Source: Vibrio tasmaniensis 1F-187
GTDB taxonomy: Bacteria; Pseudomonadota; Gammaproteobacteria; Enterobacterales; Vibrionaceae
Direction: 5' to 3'
Length of the DNA: 35,921 nucleotides
Assembly (NCBI RefSeq): GCF_000272405.2
Contig: NZ_AJZM02000018.1
Location: forward strand, 25,410 to 61,330
Shown here: positions 2,794 through 9,268 of the stretch, one piece after another
Layout: each line of letters opens with the position of its first letter
Numbering within the stretch: position 1 is the first letter of the stretch
Translations under genes and position numbers: made by a program
Notes under the pieces: generated by a model
Told to the model about the DNA's origin: nothing
The model's input: only the letters and a program-made list of their open reading frames with translations
The model's database searches: none

Positions 2794-5700
2794 TTGTATC
2801 GAATTATTTTCAAAATGTTCATCTTAATGAGCATTTCATTTAGCGTTCTTGCGGTAAATACATCACCCTCCGTTTTCTACCCTTTGCCCGTTCAAGCACA
2901 AGGGAACTTCCTTGCGGCAAAAAACCTGTACTTAGGTGAAGGTGGCGGACTCTGGGTTCATGATGTGCATGGAAAAATACTTTTTTATGATGGCAGAACC
3001 CTATTCCCTCGAAAAGGTAGCCTTTTGCAATTTTCTTCAGAGAAAGTCGCGTTTCTTAACGATGAGTTTTGGACTTTCTTTGATAATGAGGTGTACCGAC
3101 ATAGCCCAGGAATCGGCAATGCACTTGCATTTAGTCTAAGCCCGGGGGCTGAGATCGCGAATATCGGTGCTTCCGGTGATTATATTTGGGTTACAGATGG
3201 CAGTAATTTCTATACGTACAATACTCAATCTTTAGAATTTAGCACTTACTCGCTTCTAAAATTGTATCGGTACAACAATAGCAGCGATATTACGATTAAC
3301 GATGCTGAGCGGGTATTGTCAAAATGGGTGCTTGCGACCAGTTCCGGAGTGTACCTTTCTGATAGCCAAGAATTTACTCATATCGGTGCATCAGAAAAAA
3401 ATCATATAGAGACGCTGTATTTTTCTATGGCAAGACGTGAGTTAGTCATTGGCACATTGAATGGTGCAGTGATCATAGATCTTGCAAATCCTGAGAAAGA
3501 AAGGTGGGTGCGTGGTTCGCATGTTCTTTCTCTCGCTGAAACAACCGATCAATACTGGATTGGGACTGAGCATGGTCTTATCAGCTACAACTTTATTACG
3601 GGGAAAATTACACGATTTGAACAAGCCGATAATCAAGACTTTTCGTTACCGGGTGAAAAGATATATTCGTTAATCAACGACCATGCTGGTGGAATGTGGG
3701 TCGCGACCAATAATGGAATTCGATACTTTTCACTGTTCAGCAGGACATTCTCAAGAACGCCATTAACGGGAATGGGGATGCACTCGAGTAGTGTGGTGAT
3801 AAACAAAGTACAACTTGTTCGCGATCAACTGTCTTGGGTTGCTTCTTCCAGAGGTCTCTATTTAGTTGATTCTCAAAGTGAAGATAACCCCGTTCGTGTT
3901 TACTCTAACCCGGTACAGGACTTTGAGATCTTTGATTCTTCAATTTGGTTGGCGACTGCAGAAGGTATTATTAGTTTCAACACTGATACGTTAGAGGCTG
4001 AAAAGGTCGATCTACCAAGAGCGATTGAAGGTGTACCCGTTGAAAACTTTGCACTTGAAGCGGATAACATGCTTTGGATGACCTCGGGACAAAACCTTTA
4101 TTCGTTATCTATCGAAACCAATAAGTTGACAAGTTATGGCACCGACTGGTTAGTTGATAAATTTTTGCCAGCAAAGATCACCGCTCTCAATATAGGTTTG
4201 CAAGGTCGTATTTATGTTGGTACTGATCACGGATTCTACTCTTTTCTTGATGAGAGAATTAGCTTTAGTCGTTCAAGCGAGCGGCTTGGCAAAGTGGTCG
4301 ATATTGAAAAAGCGAAAGATGGATCCCAGTGGTTTGCGAGTAGCTATGGTGTGTATCGAATCCCTAATAACAGTTCTATTATTCAAGAGGTTACTCTTGT
4401 TGAGGAAAATATCAGTCCTAAATGTTTAATTAGCGATGATAATGGAATGTGGTTAGGCTCTTCGAAAGGTATTAGCTATTACGGATTGGATGGGCAACTG
4501 CATAAACATATCGGCTCACCATTTGGCTTGATCACCAATGAATTGGCTGCAGGTGCGTGTGCTCTGTTTTACAGCTCAGGTAGCCAGTCTACTAGGCTTA
4601 TCTTTGGCTCAAGATATGGCGTGGTGAGTGCATTAGCTAATGAGCTATTGGTATCAACAACACCTCATAGCCGTGCATTGCTAAGCAAGATAAGTGTCGA
4701 CCATCAGATAGTATCACTTGGTGGCAAGACAGCTGATTTAGATGAAATTCCTTATGGCTCATCAATCGGTTTTAAGATTGGAATTTTACCAGCGACATAC
4801 ACACCTGCAATGGAGTATCGACTAAGCGACAATGAACCTTGGAGTGAGTTTGAAGGGGGGTTACTAACACTCGATCACCTTCTTCCTGGGGACTATACGT
4901 TGGAAGTGAAACCCGTTAAGGACTCCCATTATCGCTTTACGTCAACGAACCAAAGCTTCTCTATTGCGGAACCTTGGTATCTGAGTAATTGGGCAGCAGC
5001 AAGCTCTCTTGTATTACTTATCTGTGTAGTGACTGCTTTGGTTTTTTGGCGATCGCGTTACGTCACTTTCGCCAACAGGCACTTAAAGGCGCAAGTTGCA
5101 TTAAAGACAGATCAACTGAGGCATCAAAGCCGAATACTACTAACGACTAATCAACAGCTTAAAAAACAGCTGTCAGTTAAGAGTGCTCTTGTCACACATA
5201 CTGCTAATGAACTCTCTTCTGAAGTTAATCATATCGCAGCTATGATCCCAAATTGGAATGATGAACAAGGTAAGTCGCCAATATTGACATTGAAAAATGG
5301 CTTGGCTCAGTTGAGTAACACGCCACAAGGGAAGGGAAAGGTTTGTTACGATATAATTTTAATCTTAGAAGCTGTACTCAAAGCTTGGCAGGACGATTTA
5401 GCCAAAGCCGGTATTGAACTGGATATTAAAGTTGAAACTAAACAACGACATGTATCCTTGCTGTATTTTAATCTTGATATTATTTTCAACAGTCTAGTCG
5501 CTAGCATCATTAAGAGAAATTTTAAGTCACAGAGTATGGTGGTATTGGTTGAAGAGGTTAAAGAGCACCTTGTTGTGACGATTCGAGACCATGGAATGCC
5601 TTTCCCAAAATTGACTTCAAGCATTAATGACAATACTGGAAAGTCGACCGACCTAAACATCGAAAAGTTGCCATTATTGATGAACCAGAGCGGTGGTGAA

Positions 5701-6180
5701 CTGAATGCTTTTGTCTCGGACTCTCAAAATAAGGTTCAGCTTTCGTGGCCAATTGAGTACCAAGTGCTCGATAATCTTGAAGCCAGCACAATTGAACAGA
5801 TTGAAACCATTAAGCTTGCCGCTTCAACGCCAGAGCAGCAAAAACTGACAGCGGAACAAGAGTGGAAGAACAGAGTGTCGCAGCTTGTGAGTGAAAACTA
5901 CGCTGATGCCGAGTTCAGTACTGCAACTGCTGCTAAGTATTTGTTTATGTCTGAGAGAAGCTTACAGAGACGTTTTAAATCTGCTTACAACAAGACCTTT
6001 AAAGAGCATTTGAATGAAGTACGTTTGGAGCATGCGTGCGAGCGGCTACTTGCGGGAGAGAGGATTTCAGACGTCGCGTTTGATTCTGGTTTCAATGACC
6101 CTTCCTATTTCAGTCAAAGGTTTAAACATCACTTTGGTATGTCGCCATCTAAGTTTGCTGAAAACAACGAAGATCAGTGA
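2794..6180 (+). CDS. Membrane-anchored sensor/AraC-family regulator with periplasmic propeller and degenerate kinase region
   Basis: The product is an 1128-aa regulator resembling hybrid two-component sensors but built as a sensor fused directly to an AraC DNA-binding domain. In order: signal/anchor sequence (about 1-20); a long periplasmic region with repeated 'GGMWVATNNGI', 'YWIGTEHGL' and 'MWLGSSKGI' type blades (reg_prop propeller, about 30-610); a Y_Y_Y-like domain (about 620-725); one TM helix (about 732-752); a coiled coil (about 758-815); a HATPase-like region (about 870-985); and an AraC HTH (about 1025-1128, 'FMSERSLQRRFK' and 'SGFNDPSYFSQRFK'). No receiver domain is seen. The kinase part lacks a clear phospho-accepting His, and the N-box and G-boxes are degraded. 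The start is TTG at 2794, chosen because AGGA lies 7 bp upstream; the ATG at 2815 has no Shine-Dalgarno. Ligand and targets are unknown, and the zinc and iron neighbours do not prove a link. Confidence 0.85.
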   Translation: MYRIIFKMFILMSISFSVLAVNTSPSVFYPLPVQAQGNFLAAKNLYLGEGGGLWVHDVHGKILFYDGRTLFPRKGSLLQFSSEKVAFLNDEFWTFFDNEVYRHSPGIGNALAFSLSPGAEIANIGASGDYIWVTDGSNFYTYNTQSLEFSTYSLLKLYRYNNSSDITINDAERVLSKWVLATSSGVYLSDSQEFTHIGASEKNHIETLYFSMARRELVIGTLNGAVIIDLANPEKERWVRGSHVLSLAETTDQYWIGTEHGLISYNFITGKITRFEQADNQDFSLPGEKIYSLINDHAGGMWVATNNGIRYFSLFSRTFSRTPLTGMGMHSSSVVINKVQLVRDQLSWVASSRGLYLVDSQSEDNPVRVYSNPVQDFEIFDSSIWLATAEGIISFNTDTLEAEKVDLPRAIEGVPVENFALEADNMLWMTSGQNLYSLSIETNKLTSYGTDWLVDKFLPAKITALNIGLQGRIYVGTDHGFYSFLDERISFSRSSERLGKVVDIEKAKDGSQWFASSYGVYRIPNNSSIIQEVTLVEENISPKCLISDDNGMWLGSSKGISYYGLDGQLHKHIGSPFGLITNELAAGACALFYSSGSQSTRLIFGSRYGVVSALANELLVSTTPHSRALLSKISVDHQIVSLGGKTADLDEIPYGSSIGFKIGILPATYTPAMEYRLSDNEPWSEFEGGLLTLDHLLPGDYTLEVKPVKDSHYRFTSTNQSFSIAEPWYLSNWAAASSLVLLICVVTALVFWRSRYVTFANRHLKAQVALKTDQLRHQSRILLTTNQQLKKQLSVKSALVTHTANELSSEVNHIAAMIPNWNDEQGKSPILTLKNGLAQLSNTPQGKGKVCYDIILILEAVLKAWQDDLAKAGIELDIKVETKQRHVSLLYFNLDIIFNSLVASIIKRNFKSQSMVVLVEEVKEHLVVTIRDHGMPFPKLTSSINDNTGKSTDLNIEKLPLLMNQSGGELNAFVSDSQNKVQLSWPIEYQVLDNLEASTIEQIETIKLAASTPEQQKLTAEQEWKNRVSQLVSENYADAEFSTATAAKYLFMSERSLQRRFKSAYNKTFKEHLNEVRLEHACERLLAGERISDVAFDSGFNDPSYFSQRFKHHFGMSPSKFAENNEDQ

Positions 6181-6220
6181 GCTAGGGACGTCCAGTTACA
6201 ACATAGATAAAGATACTTTG

Positions 6221-6249
6221 AGCCTCGACATTCGTGTTGGGGCTTTTTT
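6221..6249 (+). terminator. Intrinsic terminator after the propeller/AraC regulator
   Basis: A 10-bp stem (6221-6230 with 6235-6244, two G-T wobbles) closes a TTCG tetraloop and is followed by TTTTT. It is 40 bp after the regulator stop codon. Confidence 0.85.
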
Positions 6250-6256
6250 ATGCTTC

Positions 6257-6284
6257 TACGAGATACGAGATACGAGATACGAGA
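6257..6284. repeat. Heptanucleotide tandem repeat (TACGAGA)x4
   Basis: Four perfect copies of TACGAGA lie head to tail just after the regulator's terminator. A 7-bp unit is prone to slippage, so copy number may vary between strains. It is intergenic, and no effect on a gene is evident. Confidence 0.9.
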
Positions 6285-6338
6285 TATAACGATAGTTGGG
6301 GGAGTTTAAAAAGGTTTTTGGGTTAAAACAAAAGGAAG

Positions 6339-6470
6339 AAAAAAAATATCGTGGTATAGCCGGGGGGACTATACCACGGGTGCCAATGACACCTTCGCTT
6401 GCTGCCGGAGTGATATGGCAAGCCACATCACCTCTGGAATAAAATTAAAGAGAAAGAGTTTCTCTTCGAT
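6339..6470 (-). ncRNA. Candidate trans-acting small RNA upstream of feoA (minus strand)
   Basis: Read on the minus strand, this stretch has the layout of an Hfq-type sRNA. A possible -10 TATAGT (6477-6482) would place the 5' end near 6470; the -35 is weak. Then come hairpin 1 (8-bp perfect stem, 6448-6455 with 6459-6466), an A/U-rich linker, a long imperfect hairpin 2 (6405-6436, GGC-TT-GCC tip), a small GGTG/CACC hairpin (6379-6393), and a perfect 10-bp terminator stem (6350-6359 with 6369-6378) followed by ATA and eight T residues (6346-6339). The terminator loop is C-rich (TCCCCCCGG) and could pair with Shine-Dalgarno sequences. On the plus strand the same stem has no T-run, so minus orientation is favoured. 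There is no coding potential. It matches no sRNA family I recognise. Confidence 0.65.
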
Positions 6471-6683
6471 GGAGTAACTATACGGGTAGCGACTTGTTTT
6501 GCTTATAAAATTAACGACAGATGACTGTGAGAAAACCGACATTATTATAAGTTGTTGATTATTATCGTCTTATTGTTTTCTGGTTGACGCGTACTAGTAA
6601 GGTAGTACCCACTAATTGTTGAAAGTGACGTTTTTGACGTAAACGTTTTTAACGAAATTTACGAGAGTGTATTTTCGAAAACA

Positions 6684-6697
6684 TTGATTTCACACAA
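6684..6697 (+). promoter_or_regulatory. Possible FNR-like half-site upstream of feoA
   Basis: TTGAT-N4-CACAA resembles the FNR box TTGAT-N4-ATCAA, with a perfect left half and a poor right half. Anaerobic FNR control of feo is known in other gammaproteobacteria. The match is weak and given only as a candidate. Confidence 0.25.
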
Positions 6698-6734
6698 TAG
6701 AATTGTGGGTATGTGCGTGTATTATGTCGGTAAT

Positions 6735-6753
6735 AACAATCTTTCTCATTATC
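6735..6753 (+). promoter_or_regulatory. Candidate Fur box upstream of feoA
   Basis: AACAATCTTTCTCATTATC matches the 19-bp Fur consensus GATAATGATAATCATTATC at 13 of 19 positions, with the right half (CATTATC) perfect. It ends 19 bp before the feoA ATG, a sensible position for iron repression of feoABC. Fur control of feo is established for the family; this particular site is inferred. Confidence 0.5.
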
Positions 6754-6772
6754 AATCTCGAACTGGGTACTT

Positions 6773-6994
6773 ATGAAACTCTCACAACTAGAGCAAGGAA
6801 AAGCGGCTTCTATTGTTGCACTTACAGGTTTAACACCAGACGTTAGAAAAAAACTAATGGTTATGGGCATGTTGCCAAAAACCGAGGTGACACTTATCCG
6901 TCGTGCACCTATGGGTGATCCGCTTCAAGTTGAAGTGAGAGGTGTTTCTATAGCCATTCGTGAAAGCATTGCAGAACAAATCGAGGTTATCTAA
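6773..6994 (+). CDS. feoA: Ferrous iron transport protein FeoA
   Basis: FeoA is a small cytoplasmic SH3-like protein needed for FeoB-dependent Fe2+ uptake. The 73-aa product has the family pattern: MKLSQLEQGKAASIVAL at the start, then LTPDVRKKLMVMGMLPKTEV and a final strand region PLQVEVRGVSIAIRESIAEQIEV. Length is normal for FeoA. The ATG of feoB follows the feoA stop directly with no gap, so the two are surely co-transcribed and probably coupled. The nearly 600-bp region upstream carries a Fur-like site and a candidate sRNA on the other strand. The Shine-Dalgarno is weak (GGGT region), but no better in-frame start is seen. Confidence 0.96.
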   Translation: MKLSQLEQGKAASIVALTGLTPDVRKKLMVMGMLPKTEVTLIRRAPMGDPLQVEVRGVSIAIRESIAEQIEVI

Positions 6995-9268
6995 ATGGAT
7001 TATCAAGTTCTTACTGTTGGTAACCCTAATAGTGGTAAAACAACATTATTTAACGCATTAACTGGCGCAAAACAGCACGTTGGTAACTGGGTTGGTGTGA
7101 CCGTAGAAAAGAAAACCGGTTTATATTCGCACGCTGGTGATCAATTCCAGTTAACGGATTTACCAGGCATTTATGCACTAGACAGTGGTAATGATGCAAA
7201 CAGTATCGATGAGTCTATTGCATCACGCGCCGTGCTTACTCACCCAGCGGACGTGATCATCAATGTTGTTGATGCTAGCTGTTTGGAAAGAAGCTTATAC
7301 ATGACATTACAATTGCGAGAGTTGGGTCGCCCAATGATCGTTGTATTGAACAAAATGGATGTATTAAAGCGTGAGCGTCAGGTGATTAATCTTAAGGCTC
7401 TAGAAAAAGAGCTAGGTTGCCCGGTTCTAAGCTTGTCAGCAAACGATAAAGGACAAGTGGTTCGTTTTAAAGAGCGTTTGCATAAGCTTCTGGTTCAAGG
7501 TGTGAGTCTTGATCCTATCTCTATTGATTACGATGTCGCGTTAGAAGCTCTTATTCCTTCTGTTGAGTCACAATTTGATGATGCTGACGTATCTCACCGA
7601 GCACTAGCGATTCGTGCTTTAGAAAATGATTACTTGGTATTGAATGGTTTGGCCCCACAAACTCGCACTCAAATTGATAGTGTGCGTCTTGGTGCCGATT
7701 TCGATATTGATCTTGCTGTTGCTGACGCTAAATACACTTTCTTACATGAACTTTGTAAACGAGTTCGTCGCAGCGAAGGCAAACTGAGCCGTAATTTCAC
7801 AGAGAAAGCCGATCAATTCATTTTGAATAAATGGGTCGGGATTCCTTTCTTCTTCGTCATCATGTACCTAATGTTTATGTTCTCTATCAATATCGGTAGC
7901 GCGTTTATCGACTTCTTCGATATTGGTGTTGGCGCAATATTAGTTGATGGCGGACATCACTTATTAGATGGTCACTTACCGGTTTGGCTAGTCACCGTTC
8001 TTGCTGATGGTATTGGTGGTGGTATCCAAACGGTTGCGACCTTTATTCCGGTTATTGCCGCGCTTTACTTGTTCTTAGCGGTACTAGAAAGTTCAGGCTA
8101 CATGGCCCGCGCTGCATTTGTACTGGATAAAGTGATGCAGAAAATTGGCTTACCGGGCAAAGCATTTGTACCACTTGTTCTGGGTTTTGGCTGTAACGTA
8201 CCTTCTATCATGGCAACGCGTACTCTTGACCAAGAGCGCGAACGTAAACTCGCCGCATCAATGGCACCGTTTATGTCATGTGGTGCTCGTCTACCTGTAT
8301 ACGCACTGTTTGCTGCTGCATTCTTTCCTGGTGCTGGACAAAACGTTGTGTTCGCTCTGTACATCATGGGTATTCTGGCTTCTGTATTTACGGGCTTGTT
8401 CCTTAAAAATACTATCTATCCTGGTAGCAGCGATAGCTTGGTTATGGAAATGCCGGATTACGAATTGCCGACCGTGCAAAACGTGATGCTGAAAACTTGG
8501 CAGAAGCTGAAACGTTTCGTGCTTGGCGCAGGTAAAACCATTGTAATGGTTGTGGCAATTCTGAGTTTCTTGAATTCATTAGGTATGGACGGCAGTTTTG
8601 GTAACGAAGACAGTGAAAGTTCTGTGCTATCTAAAGCGGCTCAAGTTGTAACTCCAGTGTTCCAACCGATTGGTATTACTGAAGAGAACTGGCCTGCAAC
8701 GGTTGGTATCATTACCGGTATTTTTGCGAAAGAAGCCGTGGTTGGTACGCTAAATAGCTTATACACTACACCTTCTGATGAAGAAGCGGCTGAGTTTGAT
8801 CTAGCGGCAAGTTTAGAAGAAGCCGTAATGACCATTCCTGAAAACCTTGCTGGTTTGAGCTATTCCGATCCATTAGGCATTGAAGTTGGTGACTTGTCTG
8901 ACTCTAGTTCTGTGGCTGCTGATCAAGAGGTTGATACTTCGATCTTTGGTAACTTGAAAGATAAGTTTGTATCAGGCCACGCTGCGTTTGCTTACTTAAT
9001 CCTAATCTTGCTTTACACACCTTGTGTGGCAGCGATGGGTGCTTATGTTCGTGAATTTGGTCAGACGTTTGCCCGCTTCATCGCAGTTTGGACAATGGCA
9101 CTTGGTTACTTCGGTGCGACCTTCTATTACCAAGCAGCAAACTTCTCTGTACACCCAGTAAGTAGTGCTGTGTGGATGGTGGCAATTGCTGGTGGTTTTG
9201 TGGTGACGTATCGCATCTTCAAGAAAATCGGCAGTAAGCAAAAAGCACTTGAGGTGCAAGTAGTATGA
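6995..9268 (+). CDS. feoB: Ferrous iron transporter FeoB
   Basis: FeoB is the inner-membrane Fe2+ transporter with an N-terminal cytosolic G-protein domain. The 757-aa protein shows G1 GNPNSGKTT (residues 9-17), a G2 Thr in GVTVEKK (about 36), G3 DLPG (55-58), G4 NKMD (119-122) and G5 SAND (148-151). After a helical spacer come many membrane segments from about residue 285, with the two pseudo-symmetric Gate regions (around SSGYMARAAFVLDK to GFGCNVPSIMATRT, and around GIITGIFAKEAVVGTL to AYLILILLYTPCVAA). Length is typical for gammaproteobacterial FeoB. It follows feoA directly and its stop overlaps the feoC start by ATGA. V. cholerae FeoB is reported to accept both GTP and ATP; whether this protein does cannot be read from the sequence. 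Confidence 0.97.
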   Translation: MDYQVLTVGNPNSGKTTLFNALTGAKQHVGNWVGVTVEKKTGLYSHAGDQFQLTDLPGIYALDSGNDANSIDESIASRAVLTHPADVIINVVDASCLERSLYMTLQLRELGRPMIVVLNKMDVLKRERQVINLKALEKELGCPVLSLSANDKGQVVRFKERLHKLLVQGVSLDPISIDYDVALEALIPSVESQFDDADVSHRALAIRALENDYLVLNGLAPQTRTQIDSVRLGADFDIDLAVADAKYTFLHELCKRVRRSEGKLSRNFTEKADQFILNKWVGIPFFFVIMYLMFMFSINIGSAFIDFFDIGVGAILVDGGHHLLDGHLPVWLVTVLADGIGGGIQTVATFIPVIAALYLFLAVLESSGYMARAAFVLDKVMQKIGLPGKAFVPLVLGFGCNVPSIMATRTLDQERERKLAASMAPFMSCGARLPVYALFAAAFFPGAGQNVVFALYIMGILASVFTGLFLKNTIYPGSSDSLVMEMPDYELPTVQNVMLKTWQKLKRFVLGAGKTIVMVVAILSFLNSLGMDGSFGNEDSESSVLSKAAQVVTPVFQPIGITEENWPATVGIITGIFAKEAVVGTLNSLYTTPSDEEAAEFDLAASLEEAVMTIPENLAGLSYSDPLGIEVGDLSDSSSVAADQEVDTSIFGNLKDKFVSGHAAFAYLILILLYTPCVAAMGAYVREFGQTFARFIAVWTMALGYFGATFYYQAANFSVHPVSSAVWMVAIAGGFVVTYRIFKKIGSKQKALEVQVV

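Follow-up and report, generated by a model that had tools for sequence, protein, structure and literature searches.

The small RNA gene between a TfoS-like regulator and feoA in a Vibrio genome is tfoR, with a predicted 5′ leader and a candidate TfoS operator

Genes and small RNA at the locus

The window, i.e., the whole stretch of 35,921 nucleotides that we analysed, carries a small RNA gene on its minus strand, which sits between a TfoS-like gene and feoA. The locus comprises the following features:

2794..6180, plus strand: TfoS-like regulator of 1128 aa (Reg_prop match at residues 284-307, hydrophobic segment at ~732-755, C-terminal AraC/HTH_18)
6339..6470, minus strand: predicted whole primary transcript of ~130 nt with a 5′ leader outside Rfam, its start placed from the conserved -10 and the leader hairpin
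6339..6349, minus strand: terminator T tract
6350..6378, minus strand: terminator stem-loop of 12 bp, with a C-run (6367-6362) in and beside the loop
6379..6393, minus strand: short 6-bp stem-loop (Rfam model scan, covariation)
6394..6408, minus strand: mostly unpaired CGGCAGCAAGCGAAG (Rfam 33-47), nearly invariant and complementary to parts of the tfoX 5′ UTR
6409..6432, minus strand: central stem-loop (Rfam model scan, covariation)
6340..6440, minus strand: TfoR core, a full-length RF02100 match that is single in its genome
6447..6467, minus strand: 5′ leader hairpin, which folds in 48 of 49 distinct leaders
6477..6482, minus strand: -10 box TATAGT of the tfoR promoter, a -10-like hexamer conserved across loci
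6506..6541, minus strand: conserved direct repeats TGTCGGTTTTCTCA (6541-6528) and TGTCGTTAATTTTA (6519-6506), 22 bp apart, a candidate TfoS operator
6773..6994, plus strand: feoA (Pfam), the divergent neighbour

A covariance-model scan of the window matched the Rfam family RF02100 (tfoR, "Translational regulator of tfoXVC") at 6440-6340 on the minus strand, over model positions 1-101 of 101 and with 117.2 bits (gathering threshold 70). A search of the same genome yielded this one tfoR match, and across 6200-6770 an Rfam scan at a permissive E of up to 1 returned RF02100 and no other family. In an even draw of 296 genomes from the host's bacterial family, RF02100 was found in 215 (208 over the cut-off; the search filters lose some weak matches); none of 14 control genomes matched. 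Plasmids searched with the intergenic DNA as query gave zero matches. The original prediction of an undescribed small RNA fails on this full-length match, and the Rfam search that it called for refutes novelty only, because RF02100 is a named family: the sRNA at 6339-6470 is TfoR, already described in Vibrio cholerae, and its novelty is low. We are highly confident that this locus is tfoR in a Vibrio closely related to V. splendidus, presumably with the TfoR/TfoS/tfoX/rpoS mechanism of V. cholerae. It shares with V. cholerae TfoR the core, both in sequence and in structure, the neighbouring genes, the terminator, and the predicted tfoX and rpoS targets.

That the window instead holds an sRNA unrelated to TfoR, with the terminator alone in common, has next to no chance in our estimation. 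Six weak hits to RF02100, which all fall below the cut-off (L057-L062, 26.7-36.4 bits), do suggest that an E of 0.001 can be reached with little beyond a terminator, yet even among these L057 retains part of the core and L062 adjoins a TfoS-like gene. The match in the window, by comparison, spans the whole model at 117 bits and has the invariant core and a tfoS-like neighbour.

The predicted fold of 6470-6339 has a minimum free energy of -48.6 kcal/mol; shuffled sequences averaged -28.8 (z -5.3), and 0 of 200 went as low. Across 67 distinct relatives, 98.5% of the cells in the three core helices were paired (93.8% when shuffled), and 16 of 31 pairs had changed on both sides, with 7.5 expected and 0 of 500 shuffles as high; the rows were restricted to loci with a recognised -10, leaving out 27 distant or weak loci. 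The covariation check in relatives thus revealed compensatory changes in all three helices. The hairpins, T tract, and TATAGT that had been noticed on the minus strand are all present, with some corrections to their sizes. The terminator hairpin is indeed followed by eight T (6346-6339, after the stem at 6378-6350 and ATA), but its stem has 12 pairs and not 10; the 5′ hairpin has nine pairs including one G-U rather than a perfect 8 bp, and the stem-loop described as 4 bp measures 6 bp. The terminator-loop run of at least five C is kept in 67 of 67 rows of alignment A1. One locus of the same genus outside that alignment (L055, genome G290) has a terminator loop without the five-C run, while the G-runs of its rpoS and tfoX are retained. 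Downstream of the tfoR terminator, GAGATAC-type tandem repeats occupy window positions 6258-6286, with a unit that differs in some related loci.

The flanking genes are those of a tfoR locus. Besides its N-terminal one, the ORF at 2794-6180 has a single strongly hydrophobic segment, at ~732-755, and we call it TfoS-like from its layout and position, not from a comparison with the V. cholerae protein. It had been read as an orphan sensor-regulator; the regulator is there, but it is better seen as TfoS-like and as the functional neighbour of tfoR. Its relatives at 84-91% identity, at 11 loci in named genomes, place the host near V. splendidus, V. crassostreae, V. lentus, and V. chagasii. On the other side, FeoA and FeoC match Pfam, and 6995-9268 is, from its position, presumably FeoB. 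Among 100 loci, for which the retrieved stretches vary in length such that some flanking genes may have been missed, the TfoS C-terminus lay on the expected side in 86, a Feo protein on the other side in 95, and both in 83. We take the V. cholerae genes VC2078 and VC2080 to be feoA and tfoS. These two flank TfoR in that species, according to the accessible part of PMC8545128. At five of the weak loci (L057-L061), Feo was present and TfoS was not found; these matches beside feo consist mostly of terminator similarity and are perhaps remnants. Genome G224 carries two over-threshold tfoR matches (L038 and G224:C97:4952-5049), a possible duplicate. An iron-linked role read from the feo neighbourhood was set aside in favour of the TfoS-like gene as functional neighbour, and we found nothing on a role of TfoR in iron or zinc.

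Promoter and predicted 5′ leader

Upstream of the Rfam 5′ end, the TATAGT that had been named as a possible -10 box is present and conserved. Counting TATAGT, TATAAA, TATACT, or TATAAT as -10-like hexamers when they lay 30-50 nt ahead of the Rfam 5′ end, we found one at 35-48 nt in all 70 close loci, where 50 shuffles gave 5.7 on average and 12 at most. Of the 30 distant or weak loci, 10 had one, at 31-45 nt, compared with an average of 1.9 in shuffles. At 10-18 nt before the Rfam 5′ end, by comparison, 0 of 100 loci had such a hexamer. A sigma-70 pattern scan left the TATAGT at 6482-6477 unlisted, because there is no recognisable -35. The leader hairpin that follows the -10 box was significant against dinucleotide shuffles (p ≤ 0.05) in 41 of the 49 distinct leaders, with a mean z of -2.9, many of these leaders coming from closely related species and hence being non-independent. 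Both the promoter and the leader analyses merged identical rows and left out 27 of the loci L033-L062, the 30 that are distant or weak; among the rows kept, L081, L090, and L091 represent two other genera.

Given the conservation of the -10 box and of the hairpin behind it, both ahead of the Rfam 5′ end, the tfoR primary transcript is probably ~130 nt long and starts near 6470, and the RF02100 model, outside of which the conserved leader and -10 of the present locus fall, probably lacks the 5′ leader. An sRNA gene of ~130 nt antisense to feo, read from TATAGT as originally proposed, is well supported by this comparison of relatives. Northern blots of V. cholerae TfoR, in the accessible part of PMC8545128, display a major band of ~100 nt and minor bands of ~130 and ~250 nt. 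The same source numbers the rpoS-pairing region of TfoR as +79 to +113, which exceeds the 101 Rfam positions and, with a 30-nt leader, would correspond to Rfam 49-83.

In a different reading, which we regard as unlikely, the 5′ hairpin would serve as an operator in the DNA, and transcription would begin at the Rfam 5′ end to give an RNA of ~100 nt. The size of the major V. cholerae band and the start of the Rfam model at that very end would fit it, as would the tfoX-pairing region of +1 to +61 given in the available text of PMC8545128, which contains CGGCAGCAAGCGAAG if counted from the Rfam 5′ end and misses it if counted from a start 30 nt upstream. However, the -10-like hexamers lie 35-48 nt upstream at every close locus and at none of the 100 loci where a start at the Rfam end would place them, and the letters of the leader stem vary among relatives while the pairing persists, which makes an RNA leader more suitable than a protein site. 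With a leader-bearing primary transcript of ~130 nt as the preferred reading, trimming to a ~100-nt core may occur.

Further upstream, the two direct repeats, each beginning with TGTCG, were strongly conserved in 71 distinct promoters, and so was an AT-rich block that ends 10 nt upstream of the -10. A spacing of two helical turns suits an AraC-type activator, and because of this we propose the repeats as a candidate TfoS site. With up to three mismatches allowed, the operator pattern matched the genome solely at the tfoR promoter (one mismatch); a reversed control pattern also found one match in the genome. In the accessible parts of PMC11856585 and PMC13316777, TfoS is described as residing in the membrane, binding to the tfoR promoter, and activating it, and the present locus resembles the TfoS/ChiS-controlled promoter of those papers in its adjacent TfoS-like gene and the conserved block upstream of the -10.

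Predicted pairing with tfoX and rpoS

The genome contains a tfoX gene with the conserved 5′ UTR as well as a second TfoX-domain gene, which we took to be tfoY because a c-di-GMP-I riboswitch (L031 1255-1340) lies in front of it. Vibrio tfoX UTRs share UUCGC (29/30), GCUGC (29/30), UCUGG (30/30), and CGGGG (30/30), the first three of which are complementary to GCGAA, GCAGC, and CCAGA of TfoR; in more distant genomes, the tfoX UTRs are unlike these. We evaluated the pairing energy in the 63 genomes having both tfoR and tfoX sequences. The central TfoR stretch reached p ≤ 0.05 against the tfoX UTR in 20 of them (p 0.165 in the present genome), the terminator loop in 7, and the 5′ segment in 0, statistics that are modest; the whole-RNA TfoR/tfoX duplex was no better than shuffles (p 0.20), in a calculation that permits large internal loops. 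When the TfoR site of the present tfoX UTR was blocked, its predicted fold weakened from -20.7 to -8.7 kcal/mol but the Shine-Dalgarno AAGGA was freed only partly and unevenly (unpaired 0.18, 0.89, 0.63, 0.01, 0.04 vs 0.61, 0.61, 0.36, 0.19, 0.76), the start codon being open with and without the block. With a release so partial and uneven, the published activation of tfoX by TfoR is, from the folding model, no more than plausible in the present species.

The rpoS Shine-Dalgarno of this genome, CCAGGGGGAGGCGUUAUG, contains GGGGG and is complementary to the C-rich terminator loop, with a loop-rpoS energy of -14.8 kcal/mol (p 0.001, 1000 shuffles). Paired with rpoS from -17 onwards, the stretch at Rfam 49-84, which we picked in view of the published region, gave a predicted duplex of -29.3 kcal/mol; the published rpoS span is -17 to +18 (PMC8545128, accessible part). 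The unrestricted whole-RNA TfoR/rpoS duplex, large internal loops permitted, was no better than shuffles (p 0.47). We compared loop and rpoS across 36 genomes, 2 of them without a core TfoR (in one genome, G009, the rpoS start was placed 3 nt early, leaving the G-run unaffected). Where the loop has at least five C, the rpoS Shine-Dalgarno has at least four G in 20 of 20 genomes; where it reads CUCCCC (three genomes, two genera), rpoS has GGGAGG, which pairs with CUCCC; and where the loop C-run is missing, rpoS has only GGG in 10 of 11, the exception being G290. Loop and rpoS Shine-Dalgarno thus change together between genera, with exceptions and in few lineages, and relatedness explains part of the pattern because the genomes fall into so few of them. 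G290 and the two genomes without a core TfoR retain five or six G in rpoS, and the rpoS G-run is not maintained by TfoR alone. Possible pairing of the C-rich loop with GG-rich ribosome binding sites, as suggested earlier, agrees with both the published rpoS repression and this comparison, and the rpoS branch of TfoR may be conserved beyond V. cholerae.

Alternatively, the C-rich loop might mainly kiss the CGGGG loop of the tfoX UTR rather than rpoS, a possibility that we think improbable. CGGGG occurs not only in the 30 Vibrio tfoX UTRs but also in several that are otherwise different, C-run and GGGG occur together in 42 of the 63 genomes, and the seven significant loop-tfoX energies point the same way. 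Yet GGGG persists in 9 of 15 genomes without the C-run and is missing in 6 of 48 with it, G290 has kept CGGGG despite its changed loop, and the cross-genus pattern has many exceptions. We do not dismiss the kissing pair but keep rpoS as the predicted partner of the loop.

Proposed mechanism and meaning

In the accessible parts of the V. cholerae papers, TfoR is induced by chitin via TfoS and ChiS, activates tfoX translation, and represses rpoS (PMC8545128, PMC7564644, PMC11856585, PMC13316777), and tfoR is called Hfq-dependent (PMC7564644). Chitin is not the only condition for TfoR, because the RNA is present at similar levels across all growth phases in rich medium (PMC8545128, accessible part). 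Following these papers, chitin oligosaccharides would render ChiS and TfoS active in the membrane and switch on the tfoR promoter, after which TfoR would raise tfoX translation and repress rpoS. For the present locus, transcription from near 6470 would yield a ~130-nt RNA that carries a hairpin at its 5′ end and may afterwards be shortened to the ~100-nt core. The 5′ end of the core and CGGCAGCAAGCGAAG would pair with the tfoX 5′ UTR and alter the fold that involves its ribosome binding site, such that TfoX is made and competence follows, while the C-rich terminator loop would pair with the rpoS Shine-Dalgarno and lower RpoS. That this scheme holds across Vibrio, with a ~130-nt primary TfoR whose conserved 5′ hairpin is trimmed off to ~100 nt, a 5′ half that opens tfoX, and a terminator loop that shuts rpoS, is a tentative proposal to which we give slightly less than an even chance.

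The contributions made here are small and come from sequence comparison, namely, the predicted 5′ leader outside the Rfam model, the candidate TfoS operator, and the loop/rpoS pattern; they could help work on TfoR. The finding itself is settled: The locus encodes a competence regulator that is already known and not a new sRNA, and TfoR helps to switch on DNA uptake upon the sensing of chitin.
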